In this document: one piece after another, positions 17,619-33,709 of the stretch
Layout of the letters: the number at the start of each line of letters is the position of its first letter
Position numbering within the stretch: the stretch's first letter is position 1
Assembly (NCBI GenBank): GCA_945868825.1
Contig: CAMBMM010000002.1
Coordinates: forward strand, 1-54,251
Source of the DNA: Sphingobacterium thalpophilum
GTDB taxonomy: Bacteria > Bacteroidota > Bacteroidia > Sphingobacteriales > Sphingobacteriaceae
DNA: 54,251 nt
Direction of reading: 5' to 3'
Made by a program: the position numbers and the translations under genes
Notes under the pieces: generated by a model
What the model saw: only the letters and a program-made list of their open reading frames with translations
The model's database searches: none
What the model was told of the DNA's origin: nothing

Positions 17619-18281
17619 TTAAGATAATGCATTTCTTAGAAAAACGCTCAGGGGATAAATTTCATTCCATACTGCCAATACATCTTTTACCGCAGTAGCG
17701 CTGCATAATGCAGCAGGACTAATGGCATAATGGGCTGTAAAACTCTTTAATTTGAGCAACTCAATAGCTGGATGTTCAACCGTATATCCTTTTGGAACGG
17801 TTTTTAACTTTTCGCTAGTATCTAAACTAGTAAAATATTTTTTAAATAAAGGCTTTGCCAACACTGCGCTAAGTTCATCTCCATTGTAATCAATCTCTTG
17901 GCGTATGGCTTTTAAATCTTCGGGCTGTGGCATCCAGCAGCCTCCGGCAACAAAAGAATCTTCTGGATGAATGTGCAAGTAATAGCCTGGACCATCAAAA
18001 TTTTTACCTTTGGGAGAAATGGCAATAGCAAAATTTTCTTTATAGGGAGTTTTATCTTTGCTAAAACGCACATCGCGATAAATGCGCATAACGCAAGATT
18101 TCGGATCTAAATCTGAAGGTATTAATGGATCTAATTGAGCTAGGCCTAAAATGAGTGCTGCAGCAAATTGGTGAACGTCTTGCTTTGCTTTTTCGAAATC
18201 GGGTTTATGATCTAAAAACCATTCCCGATTGTTATGCTGACTTATCCCTTGTAAAAAATTTAAGGTGGTGGCATGCAGCAT
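17619..18281 (-). CDS. DUF2461 domain protein (TIGR02453 family)
   Basis: 220 aa. Typical family blocks are FLQGISQHNNREWFLDHKPDFEKAK, VMRIYRDVRFSKDKTPYKEN and YYLHIHPEDSFVAGGCWMP. Soluble; the biochemical function is unknown. It lies 11 nt after the small CxxC membrane protein gene and 16 nt before the OmpA gene, so it is probably cotranscribed but not obviously linked to respiration. Confidence 0.88.
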   Translation of the reverse strand: MLHATTLNFLQGISQHNNREWFLDHKPDFEKAKQDVHQFAAALILGLAQLDPLIPSDLDPKSCVMRIYRDVRFSKDKTPYKENFAIAISPKGKNFDGPGYYLHIHPEDSFVAGGCWMPQPEDLKAIRQEIDYNGDELSAVLAKPLFKKYFTSLDTSEKLKTVPKGYTVEHPAIELLKLKSFTAHYAISPAALCSATAVKDVLAVWNEIYPLSVFLRNALS

Positions 18282-18292
18282 AAAGGCGTGTG

Positions 18293-18574
18293 TTAATTTA
18301 GGTTCAAGGTTTCGTCGTTTAACTGATTGATACCAGTTTTACGGCGATACTTTTTATACCACACAAATCCTACGCCTGCAATGGCCAAATAAGGTGCTGC
18401 TAAAAGATATAATATGCCATTATTTAAGGTAGTGCCTTGTTTATTGCCATTTTTTACAGAGTTTTCTGCATTAAGGGTACACATAGCGCACTGTGCCACA
18501 CTTTTTTGCGGGATAGCAAACAAACTAGCAAAAACTAAAAACGTAAAAATCAGTTTAAACAATTTCATATACAA
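18293..18574 (-). CDS. small secreted/membrane protein with CxxC, candidate oxidase assembly factor
   Basis: 93 aa. A signal peptide ends near KSVAQ, and the mature N-terminus opens with CAMC (QCAMCTLNAENSVKNGN). One transmembrane helix (ILYLLAAPYLAIAGVGFVWY) and a basic cytoplasmic tail follow. The CxxC would lie at the outer face of the inner membrane. Neighbours are DUF420 and SCO, both associated with cytochrome oxidase biogenesis, so a copper or thiol role is possible; this is inference. Similar proteins are commonly seen as hypotheticals beside Bacteroidota oxidase genes. The start could also be the second Met at 18568. Confidence 0.75.
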   Translation of the reverse strand: MYMKLFKLIFTFLVFASLFAIPQKSVAQCAMCTLNAENSVKNGNKQGTTLNNGILYLLAAPYLAIAGVGFVWYKKYRRKTGINQLNDETLNLN

Positions 18575-18591
18575 AGATACCTAAAATTGAG

Positions 18592-19122
18592 TTAGAAGGT
18601 ATAATACGGAGCAATCATTATGTAAACGATAACACCTGTTACGGTTACATATAACCAAATCGGGAAGGTCCAACGTACCAATTTGCGATGTTTATCCACC
18701 TGCAATTTTAAACCACTATTAAAGCTTAATAAAACCAATGGCAAAACGGCTGCCGCTAAAATAATATGGCTAATAAGTATGGTATAATATACTAATCTAA
18801 TAGCGCCTGTACCCCCAAACGTAGTTTCTTTTACGAAATAGTGAAATAAGATATAGGAAACTAAAAATCCGGATGACAGTATGAAGGTGATAATGTTTAG
18901 CCTTTTGTGCATGGCTACGTTTTTGTTCGTGATAAAATAAAGTGATACCAATAGCAAAACAGAACAGGTGCCATTGAGGATGGCATTAAGCTTGGGTAAA
19001 AAATAAACGAAAGAAGGAGTGGCAATTGTAACTGGAAGGACCTTCCGATTTAAAATAACTACTACAGCAAATACAAAAATAGAAATAACAGTTACAAGTC
19101 TTTTAATGGTTTTATCAGTCAT
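18592..19122 (-). CDS. DUF420 membrane protein (CtaM-like oxidase assembly)
   Basis: 176 aa with about five transmembrane segments. The layout matches DUF420: PSFVYFLPKLNAILNGTCSVLLL, NKNVAMHKRLNI with a conserved His, SYILFHYF and SHIILAAAVLPLVLL. The conserved histidines in membrane segments fit a heme or copper role. DUF420 proteins such as Staphylococcus CtaM are required for heme-copper oxidase maturation. It stands between SCO and the CxxC protein in the oxidase block. Confidence 0.88.
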   Translation of the reverse strand: MTDKTIKRLVTVISIFVFAVVVILNRKVLPVTIATPSFVYFLPKLNAILNGTCSVLLLVSLYFITNKNVAMHKRLNIITFILSSGFLVSYILFHYFVKETTFGGTGAIRLVYYTILISHIILAAAVLPLVLLSFNSGLKLQVDKHRKLVRWTFPIWLYVTVTGVIVYIMIAPYYTF

Positions 19123-19134
19123 AATTAAGCTTAG

Positions 19135-19839
19135 TTATCTATCGGTTCTGGTTCTTAATTCTTCGTTTATAAGCACTTTTAATTCATCATCTAATTTTTC
19201 CATTTGCTCTTTATTCAACGAATCGTAGTAGCCTCTAATACGTTTTTGAGGATCTAACAAGATCAACATGGAGGAATGGATAATATTTGTAGCTTGAGAA
19301 GGATCGGGTAAAACATCTACCAAAAAACTTTGTTTTGCTAGTTCGGCAATCTCTTTTTGCGGGCCCGTAAGTAGCAGCCAATTTATCGAACGAAACCCAG
19401 TAGTTTGTTGGTAGCTGCGCAATGTAGTGGGCGAATCATGAGCACCATCTACCGAAATACTCACAAACTGCAACAAAGAATTACGTTGATACTTTTTAGC
19501 CAAATAATGTACCTGTTGGTTCATGGTAGCACAAAACACCGTACAGCGGGTATAAAAAAAGTTGACCACGAAAATGCGATGCGTTTTAGCCGGAAAATTA
19601 AAGGCCGCACTGTCTTGGTTAAGAATTGTGAAATCACGAACAGTATGATACAAGGTATCGGGAATTTTAACCCCCCGTTTGGTATGAAAGGTACTTGCTA
19701 CTTGTTTAGGGCCAAAAAATGATAAAGATTTATATCGATTTTTGCCCTTCACGGTCAGCATCCAATATAAAAATCCAGGGAAAGCCAGAATGGTTACCAG
19801 GATTAAAATCTTTTTTAAAGTAAATTTTGGGAAGCGCAT
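19135..19839 (-). CDS. SCO1/SenC family copper-binding assembly protein
   Basis: 234 aa. An N-terminal anchor (ILILVTILAFPGFLYWML) is followed by a thioredoxin-like domain. The copper motif CxxxC reads RCTVFCATMN near residue 105, and the distal His is in TNIIHSSMLILLD near residue 190. Usual SCO proteins have CPxxC; here the proline is Thr, a minor variation. It loads CuA of oxidase subunit II. Its ATG overlaps the COX IV stop (TAATG), so translation is probably coupled. Confidence 0.92.
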   Translation of the reverse strand: MRFPKFTLKKILILVTILAFPGFLYWMLTVKGKNRYKSLSFFGPKQVASTFHTKRGVKIPDTLYHTVRDFTILNQDSAAFNFPAKTHRIFVVNFFYTRCTVFCATMNQQVHYLAKKYQRNSLLQFVSISVDGAHDSPTTLRSYQQTTGFRSINWLLLTGPQKEIAELAKQSFLVDVLPDPSQATNIIHSSMLILLDPQKRIRGYYDSLNKEQMEKLDDELKVLINEELRTRTDR

Positions 19840-20177
19840 TAATAGGTTTGGAGGTGTATATAATTGCCTTCTATAAGCATGAGAACAATGAAATAAATAA
19901 TAAAAAGCAAAGAAAACACTATACTGGCTTTAAATGCAAATTTTTCGAATTTAAGGTGCATGAAATATGCAACAATATAAAATGCCTTTACAAGTGTTAA
20001 AATGATATAGGCAAAATTACCAACACCGTGTGATACTATGCCTTTGGGAATGAGGTAAAGCGCAATGATGAATTCTAAAGCGGTAATACCCAACAAATAA
20101 AAGAATACTTGCCAAATTTTTCTTTTGGTCATACTTGCATGCTCGTGAGCATGTTCTTGTGTGTGTTCTGCCGACAT
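19839..20177 (-). CDS. cytochrome c oxidase subunit IV (caa3 type)
   Basis: 112 aa with three transmembrane helices and a His-rich N-terminus (AEHTQEHAHEHAS). The pattern IWQVFFYLLGITALEFIIAL ... VKAFYIVAYFMHLKFE is characteristic of the bacterial COX IV family (prokaryotic cytochrome oxidase subunit IV). A small structural or stabilising subunit of the oxidase whose other subunits are encoded upstream. Confidence 0.9.
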   Translation of the reverse strand: MSAEHTQEHAHEHASMTKRKIWQVFFYLLGITALEFIIALYLIPKGIVSHGVGNFAYIILTLVKAFYIVAYFMHLKFEKFAFKASIVFSLLFIIYFIVLMLIEGNYIHLQTY

Positions 20178-20190
20178 ATGCTTTTTAAAA

Positions 20191-20880
20191 TTATACTAAA
20201 TAAAAGAAGGTGAAAACGAAAACCCAAACTAGGTCTACAAAGTGCCAATACAGACCTACTTTTTCTACCATAAGATAAGAACCTCGTTTTTCGAAGGTAT
20301 TGGCTAAAACCATACCTAAAATAATACAATTGATAACCACACCTGTAAATACGTGAAAACCGTGAAAACCGGTAATGGTGAAAAACAAATTAGCAAATTG
20401 AAGCGCCCCAATCGTATCTACACCGGTGTATGTTGCTGGAAAGCTACCCCACCAAAAACCCTCATGGTGCAAATGGCTCCACTCTAAGGCTTGACAACCC
20501 AAGAACATAAACCCACCAACTATGGTCCAAATCATCCAAGTTACTACTTCTTTTTTGGCTTTTCGATGGCCAGCTTCTACGGCCAAAACCATAGTTACCG
20601 AGCTCATAATTAAAATAAAAGTCATAATACCCACAAACACCAAAGGGTAGCCCTCATTGGCAATGCCGGGAATAGATTGAAATACATGATCGGGATCTGG
20701 CCAGGTAAGTTTACTAAAACGCTGGGCACCATAATAAATTAAAAATGCGGAAAATGTGAATGCATCAGATAATAAGAAAAACCACATCATTATTTTGCCA
20801 TATTCTACCTCAAATGGCGATTTGCCTCCGCTCCAAGGGCCTGTTTTTACGTAGTCAAGTGGTGATACTTTAGTACTCAT
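20191..20880 (-). CDS. ctaE: cytochrome c oxidase subunit III
   Basis: 229 aa with five or six transmembrane helices. Family blocks are KIMMWFFLLSDAFTFSAF, TYTGVDTIGALQFANLFFTITGFHGFHVFTG and the C-terminal VGLYWHFVDLVWVFVFTFFYL. It is the first of two subunit III-like proteins read in the order 20904 then 20191 and is the closer match to classical subunit III. It is part of the heme-copper oxidase. Confidence 0.93.
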   Translation of the reverse strand: MSTKVSPLDYVKTGPWSGGKSPFEVEYGKIMMWFFLLSDAFTFSAFLIYYGAQRFSKLTWPDPDHVFQSIPGIANEGYPLVFVGIMTFILIMSSVTMVLAVEAGHRKAKKEVVTWMIWTIVGGFMFLGCQALEWSHLHHEGFWWGSFPATYTGVDTIGALQFANLFFTITGFHGFHVFTGVVINCIILGMVLANTFEKRGSYLMVEKVGLYWHFVDLVWVFVFTFFYLV

Positions 20881-20903: not shown

Positions 20904-21470
20904 TTATTGGTTCAAAAGTAAGAAAACATATAGATAAATCCATAGTATATCTATAAAATGCCAAAAAATGGAGGCCGTTTCTAAGCGGAATAAATTGTTT
21001 GCTTGTGGTATGTTTTTAACCCCACCAAGCCAAGCTGCCAATACCATCATTAATCCGGCAAATACGTGTACCAAATGGGCACCGGTAAATACATAAATAA
21101 ACGATTGTGAGGCATTGGGGTTTACAAAATATATGCCTTGGCTAATAAGTGTTTGCCAAGCGCTGAGTTGCAAAACAAAAAAACCAATACCAAAACCCAT
21201 GGTTAGCAGTAAATACATTTTTTGTTGCTTCAACTGCAAGCGTTTGGCCGATAAATAGGCCATGTGCATGGTGATACTACTTAGCACAATAAGTAGGGTA
21301 CTTAATTTAAACGCCTGGGGCAAAATAATTTTTAATCCTCTATCTACACTTCCACCGGTGTATACAATAAAACCGCTGGTTAAACCAGCAAAAAGCATAA
21401 ATGAGGCAATTACGAAAAGCAAAACCAAAAACTTTTTGGCCTTAAAATTAATTCTTTCTTGTTCGGTCAT
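20904..21470 (-). CDS. second cytochrome c oxidase subunit III-like protein
   Basis: 188 aa with five hydrophobic segments. Subunit III hallmarks are present: FIYVFTGAHLVHVFAGLMMVL and the C-terminal ASIFWHFIDILWIYLYVFLLL. It is shorter than its downstream neighbour, lacking the N-terminal hydrophobic segments, and clearly paralogous to it. Tandem subunit III genes are common in Bacteroidota ACIII-caa3 clusters. Both may be subunits of the same oxidase. Confidence 0.9.
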   Translation of the reverse strand: MTEQERINFKAKKFLVLLFVIASFMLFAGLTSGFIVYTGGSVDRGLKIILPQAFKLSTLLIVLSSITMHMAYLSAKRLQLKQQKMYLLLTMGFGIGFFVLQLSAWQTLISQGIYFVNPNASQSFIYVFTGAHLVHVFAGLMMVLAAWLGGVKNIPQANNLFRLETASIFWHFIDILWIYLYVFLLLNQ

Positions 21471-21486
21471 TGGAGTTATATGAGGG

Positions 21487-22353
21487 TTAAGAAATAAAAT
21501 CTAGCAATAAGCCTACCTGTACAAGGGGCAAATATACAAAAGAGACGTACATCATTCGTCGTGCCGATGCAATATCTAATTGCCTATACAATTGAATGGC
21601 TGTATATAAAAAATACAAGCCGGCAACAAGTGAAATGAACGCAATACTGTTCCCACCAATGTGGTACAGTGTAGGCATTAAACTTACTGGTATAAGTACA
21701 ATGGTGGTGAGTAAAATTATCAATGCGCTGGTTTTGTCGGGTTTGGTGGTGGGCAACAAACGGAAACCTGCTTTTTTATAATCTTCATCTAATACCCAAG
21801 CAATAGACCAAAAGTGTGGAAACTGCCATACAAACTGGACCAAAAACAAGATAATAGGTGCCCAAGAAATGGCCGGATTTTCGAATGCCGCAAAATAGCC
21901 AATAAGTGGAGGCAATGCCCCGGGTATGGCCCCAAGAAAAACCGCAATGGGCGATTTGCGTTTCATGGGGGTGTAGATAAAGGCGTAAAAAAAGATAGAG
22001 AATACAGAGAGTACGCCGGTTAAAAAATTAAGTCGCACCAAAATTAGGGTGCCTATAATGCTCATAAAAATACTTAGAACTAAGGCTTGCCCCGTGGTCA
22101 TCCGCTCAGCAGGAATTGGCCGATCAGCAGTGCGTTTCATTAATTTATCTAAATCTTTCTCAATAATCTCGTTGAACCCATTGGCTGCAGCCGTCACCAA
22201 AAAACCGCCAATGGTTAACAAAAACCAATTGGTCCAATTCACAAATCCCTGCTCTTTACTCCCAATTAAAAAAGAGATAGAGGCAGAAAATACCACCAAG
22301 AAACTTAAACGTAGTTTTACCAATTTGGCAAAATCGGATAAGAAATTATACAT
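21487..22353 (-). CDS. ctaB: protoheme IX farnesyltransferase (heme O synthase)
   Basis: 288 aa with about nine transmembrane helices. The UbiA-family motif reads NGFNEIIEKDLDKLMKRT, giving the NxxxDxxxD pattern (residues ~60-70), followed by RPIPAERMT and the second loop DEDYKKAGFRLLP. It converts heme B to heme O, which CtaA then oxidises. It overlaps ctaA by 8 nt, indicating coupled expression. Confidence 0.95.
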   Translation of the reverse strand: MYNFLSDFAKLVKLRLSFLVVFSASISFLIGSKEQGFVNWTNWFLLTIGGFLVTAAANGFNEIIEKDLDKLMKRTADRPIPAERMTTGQALVLSIFMSIIGTLILVRLNFLTGVLSVFSIFFYAFIYTPMKRKSPIAVFLGAIPGALPPLIGYFAAFENPAISWAPIILFLVQFVWQFPHFWSIAWVLDEDYKKAGFRLLPTTKPDKTSALIILLTTIVLIPVSLMPTLYHIGGNSIAFISLVAGLYFLYTAIQLYRQLDIASARRMMYVSFVYLPLVQVGLLLDFIS

Positions 22354-23407
22354 GCGCTCCCTCCTCTTCTTTCCGAGTACTTTTTCCTAAAGCCAGCACT
22401 AAATAGAATTGTGCACCAAACAATAAACTAGCAAATACAAGATGTAAGGCCTGGGCCACTGGCGGCAATGCGAAATAGGCTAAGGAAATACCTAAAACTG
22501 CTTGTGCTCCAAGAAAAGCGAAGGAGTAGTTTATGGCACGTATAGCCTGTGATTTTTCTGCATACTGTTTTACCAAGCGACGCTCCAATGCAAAAGTTAG
22601 TGAAATAACTAAAATGGTTAAACTTCGGTGGACTTTAAAAAAATCTGCTTTATCTACCCAAAGTTCTCGGCCAGTATTATTCATGAATGAAGCAATAGCA
22701 TCTATTTGCTCACGCACTTCGGTGCCCAATACAATTTGCCCAATAGTCAGTGCAAACAAAAAGAAAGCCATAACCTTTACTGCACGATTTATGGGAAGAG
22801 CAACTTTTTGAAAATTCTTAGCATCGTAAAAGGTATACATACTGATGGCGATAATGGCCAAAGCCACTAACATATGTACGGTTACCACCCAAGCCAGTAA
22901 ATTGGTAGATACCACTATAGAACCCAACCATGCTTGGAAACCTATTAAAAACACGTTGAAGGCACTTAAAAAGAAAATACGTTTTCGAGTTTTTAAATAA
23001 GGGAAAGAGAGAAACACCGCCCCTAACAAAAACAAGCCACAAATAGCCCCAATTAACCGATTGATATATTCGGTCCAGGTTTTGGTGGCGTTAAACTCCT
23101 CAGGGAGTAAAATACTTTTATCTTCTCTAATGCGCAGGGCTAAATCGCCATAGCCCAATACATCGAGTGTTTTAGCAAAGCGCTCATTTTTAGCTACTCT
23201 ACCGGCTACATATTTTTCTTGATAATTGGCAGGCAATTGCGAAACCGAGGTTGGCGGTACGTATTGATCAAAACACTTCGGCCAATCTGGGCAGCCCATT
23301 CCCGAGCCCGAACTACGCACCACACCACCGGCCAATATCACCAAAAATAAGCTGATAATACCTAATAGGTTGACTCGTAAAAATCGTTTTTCGGCTGCTG
23401 AATGCAT
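22346..23407 (-). CDS. ctaA: heme A synthase (COX15/CtaA)
   Basis: 353 aa with eight transmembrane helices in two four-helix halves. It has the N-terminal GGVVRSSGSGMGCPDWPKCF motif with the paired Cys-containing loop and conserved histidines in each half (VHMLVALAI, VHRSLTILV, LHLVFASLLFG). It oxidises heme O to heme A for the aa3-type site. ATG at 23407. It sits just downstream of a terminator-like hairpin after ctaD, so it may be read from a separate promoter or by readthrough. Confidence 0.95.
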   Translation of the reverse strand: MHSAAEKRFLRVNLLGIISLFLVILAGGVVRSSGSGMGCPDWPKCFDQYVPPTSVSQLPANYQEKYVAGRVAKNERFAKTLDVLGYGDLALRIREDKSILLPEEFNATKTWTEYINRLIGAICGLFLLGAVFLSFPYLKTRKRIFFLSAFNVFLIGFQAWLGSIVVSTNLLAWVVTVHMLVALAIIAISMYTFYDAKNFQKVALPINRAVKVMAFFLFALTIGQIVLGTEVREQIDAIASFMNNTGRELWVDKADFFKVHRSLTILVISLTFALERRLVKQYAEKSQAIRAINYSFAFLGAQAVLGISLAYFALPPVAQALHLVFASLLFGAQFYLVLALGKSTRKEEEGAHV

Positions 23408-23486: not shown

Positions 23487-25442
23487 TTAAGGCTTTTTAG
23501 TAGGCGTTGTTTTTTTCTTTGCTGCAGGCTTTTTAGCATTTTTTAATACCGCTTTTATCGCCGGCTTAGCCGCATCAACCGGTTTTTTGGCTCCTTTAGC
23601 TGCAAACTCTTCTTGCAAACGCTCTGCTTGTGCATTGCCCTCAAAATCGTGCGCCACGTTGGAGCTCATCGTTTCTGAGAACGGTGTAGTTTGCGGAATA
23701 AAGTCTTCATCATGACCTGGTTTACTATAATCGTATGGCCAACGGTATACCGTTGGAATTTCTCCTGGCCAGTTACCGTGTAAATGTTCTACCGGAGTAG
23801 TCCATTCCAAGGTGTTCGATTTCCATGGATTTTGCGTAGTTTTCTTACCGTAAAAAATAGAATGGAAGAAATTGTACAAGAATGCCAATTGAGCTAATGC
23901 TGCTACAATGGCAGCCCAGGTAATAAATACGTTTACCGTTAACCATTCTTTCATAAACTCAAATTCGGTAAAGGCATAATATCTACGAGGCACCCCATCT
24001 AAGCCCATAAAGTGCATGGGGAAAAATACCAAATATGCACAAACAAAAGTTATCCAAAAGTGGAGATAGCCTAGTTTTTCGTCCATTTCACGACGGAACA
24101 TTTTAGGGAACCAATGGTAAACACCACAAAGCATTCCGAAAATAGCCGCAGAACCCATAACCAAATGGAAGTGGGCAACTACGAAATACGTATCGTGTAG
24201 GTTGATATCTAAGGCTGCATTTCCTAAGAAAATTCCGGTTAAACCACCAGAGATAAAGAAGGAAACCAAACCAATAGCAAAAAGCATGGCCGGAGTAAAA
24301 CGGATGTTTCCTCTCCAAAGCGTAGCCAAATAATTAAATGTTTTTACTGCCGATGGCACCGCAATGATTAACGTGGTAATCATAAACACTCCGCCCAAAA
24401 ACGGATTCATGCCGGTAAGAAACATGTGGTGACCCCACACAACAAACGACAATACGGTAATACCAATTAAAGAGTAGACCATGGCATGGTAACCGAAAAT
24501 TGGTTTACGCGAATTAGTTGCAATTACTTCAGAAGTAATACCCAAAGCAGGCATCAATACAATATACACCTCTGGGTGACCTAAGAACCAAAATAAGTGT
24601 TGCCATAAAATTGGGCTACCCCCTTGGTTGGGTAATACCTGCCCTTGCAACACAATATCAGATAAATAGAAACTGGTCCCAAAACTACGGTCGAAAATTA
24701 ACAATACCACCGCTGATACAAGTACTGGAAAAGATAAAACCCCAGTTATGGCAGTTAAGAAAAAGGCCCAAATGGTTAAAGGCATCCGCCATAAACTCAT
24801 ACCTTTAGTACGCATGTTTAATACCGTACTGATATAGTTTAAGGCTCCCATTAAAGAAGAGGCTACAAACAATACCATACTCATTAACCACAAGGTCATA
24901 CCCAAACCTGAACCCGAAATTGCTTTTGGCAAGGCCGATAAAGGTGGATAAACAGTCCAACCGGCACTAGCAGGTCCGCTTTCTACAAAGAAAGAACCCA
25001 TCATAATTACACAAGCCAAAAAGAAGAACCAGTATGATAACATGTTCAGAAATGGCGAAGCCATGTCTCTTGCGCCTAATTGTAAAGGAATTAATAGGTT
25101 ACTAAACGTTCCGCTTAAGCCTGCAGTAAGTACAAAAAATACCATCATGGTACCGTGAATGGTTACCAATGCCAGGTAAAAATCTGGTTTTATACGACCG
25201 CCCTCAGCCCATTTACCTAAAAAGGTTTCTAAAATTGGGAATGATTTATCTGGCCACCCCAATTGTAAACGGAACAATACGGATAAAAACATGGCAATAA
25301 CCCCCATAACAATTCCTGTAATAAGAAATTGTTTTGCAATCATTTTATGATCTTGACTAAACACATATTTAGTCAAAAAGGTTTCATGGTGATGACCGTG
25401 ATCGTCGTGGTGTACTGCTGTATTGTGTGCTGTGCTTGCCAT
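23487..25442 (-). CDS. ctaD: cytochrome c oxidase subunit I
   Basis: 651 aa with at least 12 transmembrane helices. Heme-copper ligands and channels are visible: WFLGHPEVYI (CuB His, cross-linked Tyr and the A1-type channel Glu), WGHHMF (CuB His pair) and HDTYFVVAHFHLVMG (heme a and a3 ligands). The N-terminus is His-rich. The C-terminus has a soluble tail with an Ala/Lys/Pro-rich stretch of about 35 residues (from AKKPVDAAKP), an add-on beyond the usual fold. It is the catalytic O2-reducing subunit of the aa3/caa3 oxidase. Confidence 0.97.
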   Translation of the reverse strand: MASTAHNTAVHHDDHGHHHETFLTKYVFSQDHKMIAKQFLITGIVMGVIAMFLSVLFRLQLGWPDKSFPILETFLGKWAEGGRIKPDFYLALVTIHGTMMVFFVLTAGLSGTFSNLLIPLQLGARDMASPFLNMLSYWFFFLACVIMMGSFFVESGPASAGWTVYPPLSALPKAISGSGLGMTLWLMSMVLFVASSLMGALNYISTVLNMRTKGMSLWRMPLTIWAFFLTAITGVLSFPVLVSAVVLLIFDRSFGTSFYLSDIVLQGQVLPNQGGSPILWQHLFWFLGHPEVYIVLMPALGITSEVIATNSRKPIFGYHAMVYSLIGITVLSFVVWGHHMFLTGMNPFLGGVFMITTLIIAVPSAVKTFNYLATLWRGNIRFTPAMLFAIGLVSFFISGGLTGIFLGNAALDINLHDTYFVVAHFHLVMGSAAIFGMLCGVYHWFPKMFRREMDEKLGYLHFWITFVCAYLVFFPMHFMGLDGVPRRYYAFTEFEFMKEWLTVNVFITWAAIVAALAQLAFLYNFFHSIFYGKKTTQNPWKSNTLEWTTPVEHLHGNWPGEIPTVYRWPYDYSKPGHDEDFIPQTTPFSETMSSNVAHDFEGNAQAERLQEEFAAKGAKKPVDAAKPAIKAVLKNAKKPAAKKKTTPTKKP

Positions 25443-25450
25443 AAACGTTT

Positions 25451-26791
25451 TTAGTTGTTAGAAGTTAATGCTACTTGAGCGGATGTGCTAGCAGAAGCCA
25501 TTTGGAGTTCTTTTTTCACATCATCATTATAATATAATGGTTGTTTAGTTAACCACTCTTGATATTCTTTCTCAGATACTACACGCACTTTAACTTGCAT
25601 ATTGTAGTGACCTGCTCCACAAACTTTCGCACATAATAAGATGTAGTCAAACTTGGGATCATTTAATTTTTCACGCATTTCTGCAGTGGTATACTTTGGC
25701 GTAAACTGGAAATTCGTTGGCATACCCGGTACTGCATTCATTTGTACCCTAAAGGTTGGGACATAAAAACTATGCAAAACATCTTTAGAACCAATATTGA
25801 AACGTACCGAACGATTGAGTGGCAAAACAATATCACCGGCTAAACGGTCATCCCAACTTTTCTTATCGCTAAAATCAATGCCTAAACCGTTGGTAGGGCT
25901 TATCAGCTTATAATTACGGGTGCCAATTTGGTTATCGTCACCAGAATAACGAAGAGACCATTTGAATTGCTCTCCGGTAACCTCTATTTGAAGGGCGTTT
26001 TTTTGATCTGAATCGGAAATATTGGTAATTCCCTTCCAAGTAAAGAAACCCAATAACACCATCACAGTTAATACAATGGCTGGAGCAATTGTCCATAAAC
26101 GCTCAATGGTATTATTATGCGGATAGAAATATGCTTTTCTTTTTTCGGAACCTGCATAACGTACTGCGAAACCAAACAATAAAAGATGAGTTATTACAAA
26201 AACTATAGTGGTGACAATCACTGTTATTTTAAACAAGAAATCAATACGTTCACCGTGTACGGAACCAGAAATAAAATTAACCATGGACCCTTGAGTGGTA
26301 TACGACCAATAAGCCCCATATAAACCTACCACCAATACAATGCCTAATAAAACAGCTTGCACTCGATACCAATTAATTCCCTTTTCTTTACCCTGAATAC
26401 TACGAGTTAATTCGTATGCTTTTAATGACCTACCAATGATGGCAATAAATGAGCAAAACAAGAAAAATAACAAGAAATAGTAACTGAATGATTTGTATAT
26501 AGGCGTATAATCAGGAGAAATTTTACCAATTTCAACTGGGTTTCCTTGGCCATCGCCCAGGTTCCACGACAATTGCGTGGTATCAACATCTGTGCTAATT
26601 AATGTTGGAATTGCAGGACCAGCCGACGCCGTAGTACTGGCAGTATCCATTGCAGTAGTCATAGATACAGCCGTAGAATCTGTTGTTTGTGCCTGAACAC
26701 TAAGGGCACTCATTAAACCTACAACTAGTACTAAGCTATACAATAAAGGACTTTTGAAAAAATTTATAACTCTCATTTTCTTATCGAACAC
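25451..26791 (-). CDS. ctaC: cytochrome c oxidase subunit II
   Basis: 446 aa, long for the family because of an N-terminal signal plus a Ser/Thr-rich extension of about 90 residues. Three hydrophobic segments lead to a cupredoxin domain with the CuA ligands: His in VLHSFYVPTF and the CAKVCGAGHYNM motif (two Cys, His, Met). No heme c (CxxCH) is fused, so electrons must come from ActA/ActE or a separate cytochrome c. The start may be 26791 or the internal Met at 26776. It lies 8 nt before ctaD. Confidence 0.95.
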   Translation of the reverse strand: MFDKKMRVINFFKSPLLYSLVLVVGLMSALSVQAQTTDSTAVSMTTAMDTASTTASAGPAIPTLISTDVDTTQLSWNLGDGQGNPVEIGKISPDYTPIYKSFSYYFLLFFLFCSFIAIIGRSLKAYELTRSIQGKEKGINWYRVQAVLLGIVLVVGLYGAYWSYTTQGSMVNFISGSVHGERIDFLFKITVIVTTIVFVITHLLLFGFAVRYAGSEKRKAYFYPHNNTIERLWTIAPAIVLTVMVLLGFFTWKGITNISDSDQKNALQIEVTGEQFKWSLRYSGDDNQIGTRNYKLISPTNGLGIDFSDKKSWDDRLAGDIVLPLNRSVRFNIGSKDVLHSFYVPTFRVQMNAVPGMPTNFQFTPKYTTAEMREKLNDPKFDYILLCAKVCGAGHYNMQVKVRVVSEKEYQEWLTKQPLYYNDDVKKELQMASASTSAQVALTSNN

Positions 26792-26811: not shown

Positions 26812-28032
26812 TTAAATGTGATGATTTACGCTCTCTTCTAAAAACGGATGGTTTGCAGGCGCCAATGGCTTTTTGCTCAACATGGTTAACATGAGGAAGC
26901 TAAACAAGCCTACAAAACAAACAGCAGTACCCACTTCAATAACACCAAAACCACGGTGTTCGGCAACGGTGCCTGGCATAATCATCATGTAATAATCTAA
27001 CCAATGGCCACATAACAATAAGATGGCTACAAAAATTAATGTATTTTCTTTTCGTTTGGCACCTCTACTCATTAAAATTAATAAGGGAGATAAAAAGTTG
27101 ATAACAATGTTTAACCAGAACCATGGCATATATTCTGGCTCCCAGCGTTTGTAGAAATACACCGTTTCTTCTGGTATGTTAGCATAATAAATCAATAAAA
27201 ATTGAGAAAACCATACGTAGGTCCAGAAAATAGAGAAGGCGAACATAAATTTACCTAAATCGTGTAAATGGCTTTCGTTAATCCAACTTATATAGCCATT
27301 ACGTTTTAATAAAATTACGGTTAAGGTTACTGCAGCCATTCCACTTACCCACATAGCGGCAAAGTTATACCAACCAAACATGGTAGAGAACCAATGCGCT
27401 TCTAAAGACATGATGGTATCAAAGGCCCAAATTGGGGTGGTAAAACCAAAAATAACTAAGAATATAGCGGAATAGGTAATGCTTTTACGGTAGTTTTTTA
27501 ATCCTCCTTCTAAATCTTCGCGGTTAGATAATTTAGTTAAAACCATCGCAAAAATGCTATATACTCCTAAAAAAACAACTAAACGGGTTAAAAAGAAAGG
27601 AACATTTAAAAAAGCAGATTTACCAGCAATTAATGCATCGTAATTGGAGCTATTCGGATCCGATAATCCTTCTTCGTTCCAATGGTGGTATAAATTGTGC
27701 GTCTGTAATCCTGCTGCACAAACAATAATTAAAATGATGGAGGCTATGGGCAATACTTTGGCAAAAGCTTGCGGAATTCGTAGTAATCCGGCCGACCAGC
27801 CTGATTGAGATACAAATTGCAGAGCAATAAAGAACGTTCCGGCAGCACATACGCAAGTAAAATAATAGGCCATTAATAGCAAATTGGCAAAAGTACGCTC
27901 AGCATGACCAGAGTAAAAGCCATACACAATGGCAGCAAGGCCAAGTACTATTGCCAATAGGCTCCAGGTTTTTGCTTTCCCTGTAAATTGGAAGTATTGA
28001 GCGAAATTATGTGTTTTAGCGTGAGTTCCCAT
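26812..28032 (-). CDS. actF: alternative complex III membrane subunit ActF
   Basis: About 406 aa from Met at 28032 (28047 is an alternative, adding five residues). About ten transmembrane helices, NrfD-related, with the ActF-like blocks HHWNEEGLSDPNS, WAFDTIMSLEAHWFSTMFGWY and RWEPEYMPWFW. In known complexes ActC and ActF are homologous quinol-interacting or proton-path subunits of alternative complex III. It is placed between actE and ctaC as in other Bacteroidota act-cta operons. Confidence 0.93.
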   Translation of the reverse strand: MGTHAKTHNFAQYFQFTGKAKTWSLLAIVLGLAAIVYGFYSGHAERTFANLLLMAYYFTCVCAAGTFFIALQFVSQSGWSAGLLRIPQAFAKVLPIASIILIIVCAAGLQTHNLYHHWNEEGLSDPNSSNYDALIAGKSAFLNVPFFLTRLVVFLGVYSIFAMVLTKLSNREDLEGGLKNYRKSITYSAIFLVIFGFTTPIWAFDTIMSLEAHWFSTMFGWYNFAAMWVSGMAAVTLTVILLKRNGYISWINESHLHDLGKFMFAFSIFWTYVWFSQFLLIYYANIPEETVYFYKRWEPEYMPWFWLNIVINFLSPLLILMSRGAKRKENTLIFVAILLLCGHWLDYYMMIMPGTVAEHRGFGVIEVGTAVCFVGLFSFLMLTMLSKKPLAPANHPFLEESVNHHI

Positions 28033-28051
28033 ATGGATGTTGAGCAATTAA

Positions 28052-28630
28052 CTACTGTAATTTTTGTAATTCGTGAACGTACATAACAATTTTCCAACGC
28101 TCTGTAGGCGTTATTTGGCTGCGATGCGCTCCCATTAAGTTTACACCATACGTAATGGTATGAAATATCTTCCCATCGGTTAAATCTTTCATAGCACCAC
28201 CACGAGAAGAAGTACCGCCAGCATAAGAAGGAGGGGCAGGAAATTTCTGCATCTTAATAATTGAACCATCTCCCTTACCTTGTAAACCATGGCATTGTGA
28301 GCACATATTTAAATAAAGTGATTTTCCTTGTTCTAAGGTTGGCACCGTAACCGGCAATGGGTTGGATAAATTTTTACCCGCAGACTCATAGCCTTCTAAA
28401 GTATTAGGGTATTGATCTTCTGTTTTAGAGAAGCCAACAGGCATAGTATGGCTTGGTGGCACCTGCGCCGTTTGGCCATTTTTAAAATTTTTATTAGGCT
28501 GATCAGGATTATACGCAATAGGGTCGTACATATTACGTGCAAATTCCCAGCCTGTACTCCTATTACCAGAACAAGCCGAAAGCGCAACTACTAACGCAAC
28601 AAGTATTATGGTCATGCAAGATTTATTCAT
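28052..28630 (-). CDS. actE: alternative complex III monoheme cytochrome c lipoprotein ActE
   Basis: 192 aa from Met at 28630 (28639 is an alternative). Lipobox ALSAC near residue 20. One heme c site, CSQCH, in LYLNMCSQCHGLQGKGDGSI, and a likely distal Met in a downstream GVNLMGAH segment. ActE-type opening YDPIAYNPDQPN. It carries electrons out of the complex together with the ActA hemes. It overlaps actD by 8 nt. Confidence 0.93.
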   Translation of the reverse strand: MNKSCMTIILVALVVALSACSGNRSTGWEFARNMYDPIAYNPDQPNKNFKNGQTAQVPPSHTMPVGFSKTEDQYPNTLEGYESAGKNLSNPLPVTVPTLEQGKSLYLNMCSQCHGLQGKGDGSIIKMQKFPAPPSYAGGTSSRGGAMKDLTDGKIFHTITYGVNLMGAHRSQITPTERWKIVMYVHELQKLQ

Positions 28631-29159
28631 AGCTAACATATTTTCTATCGTTGTACAAAACTTCTACGGCCCCAGCATCTTTTAATAAACTTTCTATTTT
28701 TTTAGCGTCACGTACTTCTTGAGCATCTATGGCAATAATAAATCGGTCGTTGGTAGCACGTAAATGCATCACCCTTGGGGAGCGGCCCGGAAATAAATGA
28801 TTTTTAAAGAAAAAAGTGAACACCATACCAAAAGCTGCAAATAATATGGTTAATTCAAACATTACGGGTATAAAATCGGGAAAGGCAAAGGCTGGTTTAC
28901 CGCCAATGTTCATGGGCCAATCAAATACCAACATATAATAAACCATGGCAAAAGCAGTACAGGTACCTGTAAGACCAAACCAAAAGGCAGCTTTAGGCAA
29001 ACGCGATGCTTTAATGCCTAATTTAGCTTCAATTCCATGAATGGGCATTGGAGTAAACACATCGTAAATGGCAATATTATGCTCCTGTAGCTTGTCAATG
29101 CCAAGCAACATTTCATCCGGATCGGCAAAAGCGCCTAATATGTATTTCGTTTTACTCAT
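28623..29159 (-). CDS. actD: alternative complex III subunit ActD (DUF3341)
   Basis: 178 aa. An N-terminal soluble part (LGAFADPDEMLLGIDKLQEHNI) is followed by two transmembrane helices and a C-terminal FIIAIDAQEVRDAKKIESLLKDAGAVEV segment, the normal DUF3341/ActD layout. A small structural membrane subunit, 2 nt after actC. Confidence 0.93.
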   Translation of the reverse strand: MSKTKYILGAFADPDEMLLGIDKLQEHNIAIYDVFTPMPIHGIEAKLGIKASRLPKAAFWFGLTGTCTAFAMVYYMLVFDWPMNIGGKPAFAFPDFIPVMFELTILFAAFGMVFTFFFKNHLFPGRSPRVMHLRATNDRFIIAIDAQEVRDAKKIESLLKDAGAVEVLYNDRKYVSYE

Positions 29160-29161
29160 AA

Positions 29162-30634
29162 TTAAATTTTTGCGTAATCAGCCGGATTCACACTATCGTA
29201 TTTGGATAAAGAATCTACATAAAATTTAGTGTGCTCTTTATTTAGATTGCCTTTAGCTATCAGTTCCTTTTTAGCTTGTTCACTAGAAGATTTTACTAGA
29301 AGTTTAACCTCGGCCATGGCTATGGCTGGTAAAAAGCGTAAAAACAACAAGAATAAAGTAAAAAATAGTCCAATGGAGCCCACAAAAATAGCTACGTCTA
29401 CCCATGTTGGATAAAACATAGTCCAACTAGATGGTAAATAATCGCGGTGTAGGGAGGTTACGATAATTACAAAACGCTCAAACCACATACCAATGTTTAC
29501 GACAATAGATAAAATCCAAGAGGCTGCAATACTGGTACGAATTTTCTTAAACCAGAACAATTGAGGAGAGATTACGTTACAAGTCATCATTGTCCAATAC
29601 GCCCACCAATACGGACCACTTACACGGTTTAAGAACGCATATTGTTCGTACTCAGCGCCAGAATACCAAGCAATAAATAATTCAGTTAAATAGGCTACAC
29701 CCACAATAGATCCCGTAACGATGATGATTTTATTCATCGATTCGATATGGAACATGGTAATGTAGTTCTCAAAATTCATCACCTTACGGGTAATTAATAA
29801 CAAGGTTTGCACCATGGCAAAACCAGAAAAAATTGCACCAGCCACAAAGTAAGGTGGGAAAATGGTGGTGTGCCATCCGGGTACAACCGAAGTGGCAAAA
29901 TCCATAGATACAATGGTGTGTACCGAAAGTACAAGGGGTGTAGAAATACCGGCTAGGATTAAAGATACTGCTTCAAATCGTTGCCATGTTTTTACCGAAC
30001 CATTCCAACCAAAAGAAAGCGTGGAATAGATTTTACGACGAAGACCAGTAGCACGGTCGCGAATAGTGGCAATATCTGGCAATAAACCGGTATACCAAAA
30101 TATCAGGGATACGGAGAAATAGGTAGAAATAGCAAACACGTCCCATATCAATGGGGAGTTAAAATTTACCCATAAAGAACCAAATTGATTAGGTAAAGGC
30201 AATGCCCAATAAAATAACCATGGGCGGCCCATGTGTGAAACAATATATGTAGCAGCACAAATTACAGCAAAAATGGTCATTGCCTCTGCCGAACGATTGA
30301 TGGAGTTACGCCAATTCTGACGGAAAAGTAAAAGTACTGCAGAAATTAATGTTCCGGCGTGACCAATACCTACCCACCATACGAAACCTGTAATATCCCA
30401 GGCCCAACCCACAGTTTTGTTTAAACCCCAGGCACCTATACCCGTCCAAAAAGTATAACTTACTGCAATTACCCACAATAAGGCGCCAAGCGATGCAATG
30501 GTGAAACCAATCCACCAGGCTTTGTTCGCTTTGTTTTCCACAGGAACCAATACATCTTCAGTGATTTTAGCATACGTGATGTTTTCACCGGTAATTAATG
30601 GTTCTCTAAGTATTGATTCGTGATGCGATGACAT
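29162..30634 (-). CDS. actC: alternative complex III NrfD-like quinol-binding subunit ActC
   Basis: 490 aa with about ten transmembrane helices. It carries the NrfD/PsrC pattern WWVGIGHAGTLISAVLLLFRQNWR, YIVSHMGRPWLFYW and VHTIVSMDFATSVVPGWHTTIFPPYF. In solved complexes ActC holds the quinol oxidation site next to ActB. It sits 28 nt after actB and 2 nt before actD. Confidence 0.95.
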   Translation of the reverse strand: MSSHHESILREPLITGENITYAKITEDVLVPVENKANKAWWIGFTIASLGALLWVIAVSYTFWTGIGAWGLNKTVGWAWDITGFVWWVGIGHAGTLISAVLLLFRQNWRNSINRSAEAMTIFAVICAATYIVSHMGRPWLFYWALPLPNQFGSLWVNFNSPLIWDVFAISTYFSVSLIFWYTGLLPDIATIRDRATGLRRKIYSTLSFGWNGSVKTWQRFEAVSLILAGISTPLVLSVHTIVSMDFATSVVPGWHTTIFPPYFVAGAIFSGFAMVQTLLLITRKVMNFENYITMFHIESMNKIIIVTGSIVGVAYLTELFIAWYSGAEYEQYAFLNRVSGPYWWAYWTMMTCNVISPQLFWFKKIRTSIAASWILSIVVNIGMWFERFVIIVTSLHRDYLPSSWTMFYPTWVDVAIFVGSIGLFFTLFLLFLRFLPAIAMAEVKLLVKSSSEQAKKELIAKGNLNKEHTKFYVDSLSKYDSVNPADYAKI

Positions 30635-30662
30635 AATTTTTTAATTACTTTTCTACGAAATT

Positions 30663-33600
30663 TTATAGTTCTGACGTATTTCTAACTTTTACTTGATACC
30701 CAACACCTGGCTGAACGTTTAGTTCTTCCAACACATAATACGTACGTTCGCTTTTTAATGCTTTGGACACCTCTGAGTTTGGATCATTACCGTCGCCAAA
30801 AATAATGGCATTGGCCGGACAAGTTTGTTGGCAGGCAACCTTAACATCACCATCTTTCAAGGGACGTTTTTCTAATTTTGCTTGCAATTTACCAGCTTGT
30901 ATACGTTGAATACACATAGAGCATTTTTCCATTACCCCACGTGAACGTGTAGTAACATCTGGATTTAATACCAATTGTGTAAACTCATTATTTAAATAGT
31001 TGTCAAAACGAGAATCGTTCCAGTAGTTAAACCAGTTGAAACGACGTACTTTGTAGGGACAGTTGTTCGCACAATAACGAGTACCAATACACCGATTATA
31101 GGCCATTTGGTTAATTCCCTCTGAAGAGTGCGTAGTAGCCAATACCGGGCAAACTGTCTCACACGGAGCATGCTCACAATGCTGACACATCATAGGTTGA
31201 TGAATCACGGATACATCGTCCAGGTTTTCTAAATTGGCAATCTCGTTTTCTTCGGTAACAGCAGTACCATTTTCAGTATAGCTATAGTAGCGATCGATAC
31301 GGATCCAGTGCATTTCACGACGACGACGAACCTCATCACGGCCTACCACCGGCACATTATTTTCGGCACTACACGCTACAATACACGCACCACAACCCGT
31401 ACATGCATTTAAATCGATTGCCATTACCCAATTATTGCCTGGCTTTTCATATTTATCCCATAAATCATAGGTTTTATGGTCTGAATGCTTGTTGCCTGCA
31501 TGTGGATCTTTTAAATATTCCTTTAAAGTGGTTTCTCGAATAATATTGCGACCCTCAATAGAATGATGAGTTTGTGTTTGTGCCAACTCATATCGGCCAC
31601 TTACCTTACTTACGCTAGCTTTTGCGACCGTTTGAAAGGTTCCATTTTCGAAAGTGATAAAAGGATAGGCATTTTTACCAACCTCATTACCAGCTTGACC
31701 CGCTTTAGTTCGGCCATAACCTAGCGCTACAGATATTGTTCCGTTGGCTTGACCCGGCTGAACCAGTACTGGAAGTGTGATGCTATATGTAGCCGTTTTT
31801 ATTTCAACTAAATCAAATTCAGTTACACCTATTTCTTCAGCATAGGTCGAAGAAATAGCGGCGTAGTTATCCCAAGTTACTTTAGAAACCGGATCTGGTA
31901 ATTCTTGTAACCACGGGTTATTGGCCACTTGACCATCGCCTAAAGCTACATTTTGGTATAGCTGAATTTCTACTCCTTTGCTACCGGCAGCTAGCTTAGC
32001 GCTTTCAGCAACAATAGTATTAGCAACCGCAGTAACATCTAAATTAAATGATACTGGAGTAGCGTTTGCCGAGCCGGTGTTTACAAAACCTGTTTGCAAT
32101 ACATCGTCCCAAGATTTACCACTGCTAGCCAATACTGTTTTCTCCCAAGTATTACGTACAAATTGGAAGTAATCTGTAACCGCACTTCCCGACCAGTTTA
32201 ATAAACTTTCTTCGGCCATACGGGTGTTGTAAACCGGATTAATAGTTGGCTGAACCAAGGTATAATAACCTGCTACAGGGTTGCTATCTCCCCAAGATTC
32301 TAAATAATGATTTGCCGGAGCAATTACGGTACATAAGCTAGCGGTTTCATCGGCACGATCGGCAAAGGAAACACGTAAGCTCACGAAACGGAGAGCATCG
32401 GTAAATTCTTTAGTATTTACGTAGCTATAAACTGGGTTACTATTCAAAAAGAATACCGCACCTACTTCGCCACGTTTCATCTCATTAATAAGCGCTACAA
32501 ACTCAGCGTCGTTTCCGGCAAATTGATTTGAAGGGTTATTAAGATTAATGGTGCTACCATAACTACCCAATAAAGCATTAATGGCATTTACTATAATTTG
32601 ACTAGAAACATCGTTAGAACCACAAACTACTAAGGCTTTGCCTTTAGCGTTTGCCAATTCTCTAGCTGCTAGCTGAATGGCTTTATCTGCTTTAGGGTTA
32701 TTGGCTAATTTTTTAGCGCTTACCTTACCACCCAAAGCTTGGTATAAGTTTAATAATGCAATCCCTTCTTCAGATGGTTTAATAGCAATACGAGCATCGG
32801 CATTGGTACCGGTTAAGCTCATGCCTGTTTCAAACTGAATGTGGCGTGACATCTTTTTGTTTTCCAACGATGCTGCACCACGGTTTGCGGTATACTGACG
32901 AGTAAATTCTACTGGCGAAATCCACGTTCCTAAGAAATCGGCACCGAAACTTACAATAACATCTGCCTTATCAAATTGATATTGTGGTAAAACCGCTTTG
33001 CCAAAACTGTTTTGATTGGCCTGGATGATACCTGTATACGATACGGCATCAACCTGAACTAATTTTGCAGTTGGATTGGCTGCTACAAACTCAGCAATAA
33101 CTGCTTTGGTTGAAGGGCTGTTTACAGTTGAGCTAACCAAACGAATTTTTTTGCCACTAGCTCTCACTTTAGTCAATTCGCCTTTTACAAAGCTATCAAC
33201 CTGAGTCCAACTAGTTTCGCGGCGGTTTAGTACTGGTGCTTGCAAACGAGAAACATCGTATAAATCTAATACCGATGCCTGAGCTTGGGCATTTAAGCGT
33301 CCGCCACTAAGCAAACATGCAGGGTTACCCTCTACTTTAATAGGTCTACCTTCGCGGGTTTTCACCAAAATACTATGGCCATTATAGCTCGATGCATAAT
33401 AGTTAGGAATTCCTGGAACAATTTCTTCTGGTTTTACCAAGTAAGGAATTGCTTTGTGAACAGGGGCTGGCTGACATGCGGCAAGGGTAACTGCACCTAC
33501 CCCAAAACCCAATGCTTTCAAGAAATCTCTACGAGGCGTAACGGTACTTAAACCAGCTTCATTTAACACTTCTTCAATTGGCAATGATTCTGCGAATTCG

Positions 33601-33677
33601 TTTTTGCTTTGTTTAACAAATTCGGGAGTTTGCTTTAGTTCTTCTAAACCTTTCCAGTATTTTTTATTGCTTTCCAT
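30663..33677 (-). CDS. actB: alternative complex III iron-sulfur subunit ActB (molybdopterin oxidoreductase-like)
   Basis: 1004 aa. A Tat-type motif lies unusually far in, near residue 48 (PRRDFLKALGFGVGAVTLAAC), as in the TAT-variant-translocated group. The central ~650 residues are molybdopterin-oxidoreductase-like; the family is known to lack the molybdenum cofactor. The C-terminal ferredoxin-like part has CTGCGACIVAC, CQHCEHAPCETVC, CIGTRYCANNCPYK and CSMC...CQQTC motifs for four iron-sulfur clusters (three 4Fe and one 3Fe in relatives). It transfers electrons from quinol to the ActA/ActE hemes. Confidence 0.96.
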   Translation of the reverse strand: MESNKKYWKGLEELKQTPEFVKQSKNEFAESLPIEEVLNEAGLSTVTPRRDFLKALGFGVGAVTLAACQPAPVHKAIPYLVKPEEIVPGIPNYYASSYNGHSILVKTREGRPIKVEGNPACLLSGGRLNAQAQASVLDLYDVSRLQAPVLNRRETSWTQVDSFVKGELTKVRASGKKIRLVSSTVNSPSTKAVIAEFVAANPTAKLVQVDAVSYTGIIQANQNSFGKAVLPQYQFDKADVIVSFGADFLGTWISPVEFTRQYTANRGAASLENKKMSRHIQFETGMSLTGTNADARIAIKPSEEGIALLNLYQALGGKVSAKKLANNPKADKAIQLAARELANAKGKALVVCGSNDVSSQIIVNAINALLGSYGSTINLNNPSNQFAGNDAEFVALINEMKRGEVGAVFFLNSNPVYSYVNTKEFTDALRFVSLRVSFADRADETASLCTVIAPANHYLESWGDSNPVAGYYTLVQPTINPVYNTRMAEESLLNWSGSAVTDYFQFVRNTWEKTVLASSGKSWDDVLQTGFVNTGSANATPVSFNLDVTAVANTIVAESAKLAAGSKGVEIQLYQNVALGDGQVANNPWLQELPDPVSKVTWDNYAAISSTYAEEIGVTEFDLVEIKTATYSITLPVLVQPGQANGTISVALGYGRTKAGQAGNEVGKNAYPFITFENGTFQTVAKASVSKVSGRYELAQTQTHHSIEGRNIIRETTLKEYLKDPHAGNKHSDHKTYDLWDKYEKPGNNWVMAIDLNACTGCGACIVACSAENNVPVVGRDEVRRRREMHWIRIDRYYSYTENGTAVTEENEIANLENLDDVSVIHQPMMCQHCEHAPCETVCPVLATTHSSEGINQMAYNRCIGTRYCANNCPYKVRRFNWFNYWNDSRFDNYLNNEFTQLVLNPDVTTRSRGVMEKCSMCIQRIQAGKLQAKLEKRPLKDGDVKVACQQTCPANAIIFGDGNDPNSEVSKALKSERTYYVLEELNVQPGVGYQVKVRNTSEL

Positions 33678-33709
33678 TTAAGCTATATAACTCTATTGAA
33701 ATTCTACTA

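Follow-up and report, generated by a model that had tools for sequence, protein, structure and literature searches.

A small QCxMC membrane protein encoded with the aa3 oxidase of Bacteroidota: a candidate factor for oxidase copper loading

Introduction

The copper centers of cytochrome oxidases are served by several families of accessory proteins that differ in fold and motif. Cox11 (PF04442) is a CuB metallochaperone with the copper motif CFCF, SCO1/SenC proteins (PF02630) have a thioredoxin fold with a CxxxC motif and a distal His, and PCuAC (PF04314) and CtaK/YtkA, which act in outer copper delivery to the oxidase, are soluble or lipoprotein beta folds. Caa3_CtaG (PF09678) is an oxidase-type-specific factor encoded beside oxidase genes. 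Elsewhere, CuB loading would be the job of Cox11 or, tentatively, of Caa3_CtaG.

The protein described here under the working name CXMC can be set beside each of these. Like Cox11, it has a single helix, a Cys pair predicted to lie outside, a place in an oxidase cluster and CuB as its proposed target; unlike Cox11, to which it shows no sequence match, it is much smaller, carries an N-terminal QCxMC rather than CFCF, and has its helix behind the Cys part, whereas that of Cox11 precedes it. Like SCO1/SenC, it would be anchored in the membrane and offer a pair of outer Cys residues to the copper of the oxidase, but it has no Pfam match and no sign of a thioredoxin fold in that search, a CxxC in place of CxxxC and a mature length of only 66 residues. 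Its gene adjoins that of CtaM/DUF420 (PF04238), an oxidase assembly protein for which copper export has been proposed; CtaM/DUF420 is multi-helix, unlike CXMC, and no homology is seen between the two. Caa3_CtaG belongs to another family, does not match CXMC, and was seen only next to CoxA of another clade. The outer copper delivery proposed for CXMC is shared with PCuAC and CtaK/YtkA, again with no sequence match and with a different architecture.

A recent article proposes DUF420/CtaM as a copper exporter for oxidase assembly and mentions SCO-DUF420 fusions (mBio 2026, PMC13344008), and a 2022 review of bacterial oxidase assembly places CtaM late, perhaps in CuB assembly, and expects factors yet to be discovered; in the main text of that review the strings 'Bacteroid', 'Flavobacter' and 'Cytophag' do not occur (PMC9145763). 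Within the open-licence literature, we found neither a published description of the CXMC protein nor a study of CuB insertion in Bacteroidota. CXMC goes with a single oxidase clade, in a class whose sampled genomes have no Cox11 and almost no Caa3_CtaG or PCuAC. Since the same respiratory complex can be studied genetically in Flavobacterium johnsoniae (PMC8552683), the ideas put forward here are directly testable.

The CXMC gene and its cluster

The window, that is, the whole analysed stretch of 54,251 nucleotides from Sphingobacterium thalpophilum (GCA_945868825.1, contig CAMBMM010000002.1), carries an extended same-strand run of genes, in the order alternative complex III (ACIII), CoxB, CoxA, CtaA, CtaB, COX3, COX3, COX4, SCO, DUF420, CXMC and DUF2461. 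CXMC thus lies near the end of the run, separated by 23 bp from DUF420 and by 11 bp from DUF2461.

17619..18281, minus strand: DUF2461 gene (PF09365), downstream of CXMC in the same direction
18293..18568, minus strand: CXMC gene, encoding a QCxMC small membrane protein of 91 aa
18356..18424, minus strand: CXMC transmembrane helix, residues about 49-71, with the conserved pattern N.GI..L...PY
18479..18490, minus strand: CAMC motif of CXMC, residues 27-30 (conservation in 145 distinct relatives)
18494..18568, minus strand: putative signal peptide of CXMC, residues 1-25, predicted cleavage before Gln26 (hydropathy and AQC conservation)
18592..19122, minus strand: DUF420 (CtaM-like) gene (PF04238, E 2.8e-42, 144.5 bits)
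19135..19839, minus strand: SCO1/SenC gene (PF02630, E 1e-18, 68 bits)
19839..20177, minus strand: oxidase subunit IV, COX4 (PF03626)
20191..20880, minus strand: oxidase subunit III homologue, COX3 (PF00510)
20904..21470, minus strand: second oxidase subunit III homologue, COX3 (PF00510)
21487..22353, minus strand: heme O synthase CtaB (PF01040, TIGR01473)
22346..23407, minus strand: heme A synthase CtaA (PF02628)
23487..25442, minus strand: oxidase subunit I, CoxA, with the CuB site (TIGR02891, E 2e-177, below its cut-off)
25451..26791, minus strand: oxidase subunit II, CoxB, with the CuA-type motif CAKVCGAGHYNM (TIGR02866, E 1.5e-36, below its cut-off)
26812..34981, minus strand: alternative complex III genes (open reading frames and Qrc/Dsr-type matches), which we take from the known ACIII layout to be ActF to ActA

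The original prediction for this locus had described a 93-aa protein next to DUF420 and SCO. Both neighbours are confirmed upstream of CXMC by their Pfam scores, and the open reading frame stands as listed (18293-18574, 93 aa from a TTG start), on the minus strand, which the original prediction did not specify, but its length has to be revised, as the likely start is the ATG at 18568, which gives 91 aa (MKLFKL...) and agrees with the starts of relatives. The predicted signal peptide, CAMC at the mature N-terminus, single helix and basic tail are all recognisable in the sequence and its hydropathy. The N-terminus is a hydrophobic stretch followed by A-Q, resembling a signal peptide, behind which the mature protein of about 66 residues begins QCAMCTLNAENSVKNG, with QCAMC at its very N-terminus. 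Hydropathy and the structural model agree on one membrane helix besides the signal peptide, and the basic tail YKKYRRK lies directly behind it. Because the signal peptide is followed by the Cys pair, the helix and the basic tail, in that order, the Cys pair should face the outside, where only about 23 residues of the mature protein would lie. An AlphaFold model (44 rows) is of low confidence, with a mean pLDDT of 67.3 and a pTM of 0.32, and gives helices at 2-18, 28-39 and 43-79, so that the part outside the membrane contains one short helix. CXMC is single-copy in its source genome (1.66 Mb, 99.38% complete), as is the COX1 match, and a genome of this size with a single COX1 match still retains the gene; a second, weak match to CXMC in the same genome (E 0.007) proved to be an unrelated deaminase frame and was rejected.

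A conserved family without a Pfam, NCBIfam or PDB match

Matches to CXMC were present in 56 of 60 genomes, its own included, with best E-values in the other genomes from 7.8e-57 to 1.3e-5, a rate far beyond chance. A profile search of 198 genomes of the phylum detected it in 51, comprising 48 from the same class and three from outside; the corresponding rates are 48/50 within the class and 3/148 outside it, with 127 genomes assigned to the outside group from the order of the genome list. All members used to build the profile had the Cys pair, and relatives that have changed strongly may be missing from the count.

Across 145 distinct relatives (166 matched rows), both Cys residues and the Pro of the helix are kept without exception, the helix Asn in 142, the Gln before the first Cys in 144 and the Ala preceding it in 133. 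The middle Met of CxMC is present in 132 and lost in 13, which include six of the seven f25 loci examined and four members of the window's own family; the six f25 loci show QC[SA][IV]C or GCAVC instead of QCxMC, and the seventh, L173, retains Met. The residue behind the second Cys is variable (T, K, R, S, A, Q or G), and the relatives contain neither a c-type heme motif (CXXCH or CXXCK) nor a conserved His. Since Gln precedes the Cys, a lipobox ending in [GAS]C is absent.

The window protein matched no Pfam family up to E 1, and no consistent Pfam, NCBIfam or PDB family was obtained for it and the members searched (29 of 59 CXMC proteins); no PDB chain matched in a file that omits chains of unknown residues. 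Weak member matches, to a FeoB-associated family (best E 0.0047, 4 of 29), DUF334 (0.00025, one member) and TraA (0.00087, one member), differed between members and were rejected, and Cox11 was not among the 25 listed of the 33 families that the 29 members matched. Searches with tblastn returned no relatives among viral-contig candidates and, with one CXMC relative as query, none in plasmids. Among 198 matching frames there was no fusion to DUF420, SCO, COX4, CtaB or DUF2461, and the long open frames look like upstream read-through. CXMC is a real, conserved family without a name and without a fitting entry in these three databases.

Gene neighbourhood in close and divergent genomes

Two sets of loci were compared, namely close loci, the best 80 of 485 relatives in a contig scan, all near the window's group, and a breadth sample of 56 stretches from divergent genomes. 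Upstream of CXMC, the first recognised cox-cluster gene is DUF420, on the same strand, in all 80 close loci, and the spacing is within 200 bp in 77 of them. Among the divergent loci, 40 of 56 have a cox-cluster gene at most 600 bp from CXMC, the nearest being DUF420 in 36, COX4 in three and SCO in one; in one of the 36, L170, DUF420 adjoins CXMC on the opposite strand, and in the genomes G074, G127 and G098 CXMC directly follows COX4, with DUF420 located elsewhere.

In the other divergent loci, a cox-cluster gene was found 5-7 kb from CXMC in four, and none within the stretch examined in 12, of which at least one lies on a short contig. All seven f25 loci are unlinked, with a cox gene 5-7 kb away or none in the stretch. 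In some genomes with an unlinked CXMC (clusters L206 and L210-L213) the oxidase cluster itself is split or cut by the contig, and in G065, G089 and G020 CXMC lies outside an oxidase cluster in which the structural genes still run to DUF420 together. Linkage of homologues to cta genes, the test named in the original prediction, thus gives a mixed result: it is seen in every close locus and in the 40 divergent loci with an adjacent gene, and is loose in the four at 5-7 kb and not seen in the 12 with none in the stretch. On the other side of the gene, DUF2461 was found near CXMC in 72 of the 80 close loci.

Co-occurrence with the CuA-type oxidase

The class of the window was sampled with 158 genomes, the source genome included, of completeness 95 or more. 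The CXMC profile matched 145 of these at E 0.01, and 143 after two near-chance matches had been counted as absent (G262, E 0.0051; G343, E 0.0016, a 28-position match in a 356-aa frame). COX1 (PF00115) was detected in 153 and CoxB (TIGR02866) in 149 of the 158. CXMC occurs in 143 of the 149 genomes with CoxB and in none of the nine without it (Fisher p 4e-11, uncorrected for kinship), and the families f63 and f23 each include positive and negative members. Four of the nine CoxB-less genomes (G057, G262, G285 and G292) contain COX1, perhaps cbb3- or NOR-like, and lack CXMC, which means that the gene goes with the CuA-type oxidase.

Six genomes have CoxB and no CXMC, namely G256, G280, G343, G309, G337 and G358. 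Of the 15 class genomes that lack CXMC, 12 lack DUF420 as well, and the other three (G256, G280 and G309) have it. The contig of G256 that encodes a Bacteroidota-type CoxA (L218) ends just behind this gene, and DUF420 lies elsewhere without CXMC behind it; in its congener G286, CXMC follows CoxA-COX3-COX4-SCO and DUF420 is likewise not followed by CXMC, and hence the expected place of CXMC in G256 falls off the contig. G343 has CoxB and neither CXMC nor DUF420, which its congener G363 has side by side, and this lack is perhaps an assembly gap. In G280 (300 contigs, completeness 95), which has a Bacteroidota-type CoxA and DUF420 split over two contigs, no CXMC was found; the contig continues past DUF420 with a gene, presumably tgt-like, where CXMC would be expected, so a contig end does not account for the lack. 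G309 has no aa3-type CoxA among its matches (best COX1 E 3.8e-83), and its CoxB match is a short frame. Its locus L225 keeps CtaB-SCO-DUF420; compared with the congener G058 (L160), its DUF420 and acyltransferase-like genes lack, between them, CXMC and the next gene, which we take to be a TrhO-like rhodanese. CXMC therefore appears tied to the oxidase rather than to DUF420 and SCO.

Known copper factors and CoxA types

In searches that were positive in control genomes, Cox11 was found in none of the 158 class genomes, Caa3_CtaG in only one and PCuAC in only one, near a contig end. Named exceptions aside, the sampled class therefore builds its aa3 oxidase with SCO and DUF420 and with none of the known CuB factors. 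Across the phylum sample, Cox11 was found in 4 of 198 genomes (two full matches, one partial and one below the cut-off), and outside the class the majority of genomes carry neither CXMC (3 of about 148) nor Cox11. An oxidase without the known copper factors need not imply a further one: G337 and G358 (family f90; L215 and L216), whose CoxB scores above the cut-off and whose CoxA forms a separate clade, yielded none of CXMC, DUF420, Cox11, Caa3_CtaG and PCuAC in profile searches.

Genomes with two cox clusters are informative here. G074 and G127, of one genus in another class, each combine a first cluster with CtaB-Cox11-COX3 (L222, L223), the Cox11 showing CFCF, with a second containing COX4-CXMC-SCO (L188, L190); the objection that CXMC cannot replace Cox11 where the two coexist is answered by these separate clusters. 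In G089, a second CoxB-CoxA-COX3 set is directly followed by Caa3_CtaG; the Bacteroidota-type cluster has another location (L207), and CXMC is linked to no cluster (L166). In a CoxA tree of 38 rows (rows below 400 aa, 2 of 39 matches, omitted in tree building), 33 Bacteroidota-type sequences, including all CXMC-linked ones and L188-L190, split off with support 100/100; outside them fall the CoxA of L208 (CtaG), on a long branch of unsure exact placement, of L222/L223 (Cox11) and of L215/L216 (f90). In these three genomes, from two lineages, Cox11 or CtaG goes with the other CoxA type and not with that of CXMC.

Proposed function and alternatives

We consider CXMC probably to be a dedicated biogenesis factor, in a broad sense, of the Bacteroidota aa3 oxidase. 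The function linked to this enzyme in the original prediction gains from the presence of CXMC in 143 of 149 genomes with CoxB and in none of nine without, and from the invariant Cys pair (145/145); the 12 unlinked divergent loci count the other way. The best reading is more specifically that CXMC is a Cu(I) carrier for assembly of this A-family oxidase, working with DUF420/CtaM and SCO, and we give it even odds: a membrane-held QCxMC peptide whose gene comes straight after DUF420 would fit a carrier between DUF420, SCO and CoxA, and against it stand the Met lost in 13 of 145 relatives, the 12 of 56 unlinked divergent loci, G256 and G280, with DUF420 and a Bacteroidota-type CoxA but no CXMC found, and G074, G127 and G098, where DUF420 is not next to CXMC. 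It is conceivable, at a more speculative level, that CXMC is a third, unrelated CuB chaperone in aerobic Bacteroidota, a membrane peptide of 66 residues that holds one Cu(I) at its N-terminal QCxMC and replaces Cox11 and Caa3_CtaG, with one CuB factor per CoxA clade. CuB is suggested as the target because Cox11 and CtaG are absent and because of the one-factor-per-clade pattern in two lineages. Copper binding, topology, cleavage, partner and CuB target are all matters that we infer.

In such a mechanism, the signal peptide would direct export of CXMC and be removed by cleavage before Gln26, leaving the protein anchored by its one helix, N-terminus outside. The free N-terminal QCxMC could bind one Cu(I) through two thiolates, with Met helping where present, and the helix residues N49, G51, P59 and Y60 may dock the protein on a membrane partner, either oxidase subunit I or DUF420/CtaM. 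CXMC would then pick up copper released on the outer side, possibly by DUF420, and pass it to the oxidase, most likely to the CuB site of CoxA. It is a good candidate for the missing copper-loading helper of the main oxygen-consuming enzyme of Bacteroidota.

The main rival holds that CXMC is a small structural subunit of the aa3 oxidase or of an ACIII-aa3 supercomplex, in which the Cys pair contacts CoxB or forms a disulphide and the helix packs on CoxA or COX3. A structural subunit would give the same co-occurrence with the oxidase as a biogenesis factor, and the tie to one CoxA clade, the position directly behind COX4 in G074, G127 and G098, and the loss of CXMC together with aa3-type CoxA in G309, where CtaB-SCO-DUF420 is kept, all agree with it. 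We nevertheless think it rather unlikely, as the gene comes after SCO and DUF420, both assembly genes, at all 80 close and 36 of 56 divergent loci, has left the cluster in G065, G089 and G020, where the structural genes are still together with DUF420, and encodes a protein that matches no PDB chain in the file searched; to our knowledge, an invariant exposed CxxC would also be unusual for a structural subunit.

Less likely still is a thiol-redox helper, whose CxxC would reduce or guard the Cys residues of CuA in CoxB, or of SCO, for copper loading. Such a role would suit a CxxC encoded next to SCO and DUF420, and a Cys pair that never varies, in contrast to Met, a ligand of the copper type, which 13 of 145 relatives lack. 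However, CXMC has no thioredoxin-family match in Pfam, its outer mature part is confined to some 23 residues with one short helix in the low-confidence model, and two f27 loci with a Cys-less gene at the place of SCO still keep it. Help with heme A insertion or with a DUF420/CtaA step, instead of copper, would accord with CtaA and CtaB lying in the same cluster, and heme maturation was among the options of the original prediction; we now hold it to be very improbable. Among 65 close loci showing both CoxA and CtaB, 13 have lost the window-type CtaA between them and kept CXMC (L065, L071, L072, L076, L079, L083, L085, L086, L088, L089, L093, L094 and L122). The same 13 genomes have a different CtaA elsewhere (PF02628, E 7.8e-82 to 7.2e-93, versus 2.2e-30 and 4.3e-47 in two controls), so that the type of heme A synthase is swapped in them. 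A role in heme A maturation is less likely because CXMC stays where the window-type CtaA has left, and the protein has neither CXXCH nor a conserved His.

Variation at the SCO position

The genes before DUF420 vary among the divergent clusters. In four f27 clusters (L183, L167, L170 and L184), neither SCO nor a window-type CtaA was found; in the two that were read (L183 and L167), the gene at the place of SCO encodes a protein without any Cys, and CXMC, with QCPMC, and DUF420 are kept. A tandem pair of SCO genes precedes DUF420 in 11 of the 56 divergent loci (L141, L164, L165, L168, L169, L175, L179, L180, L185, L195 and L196), which suggests separate roles for the two SCO proteins.
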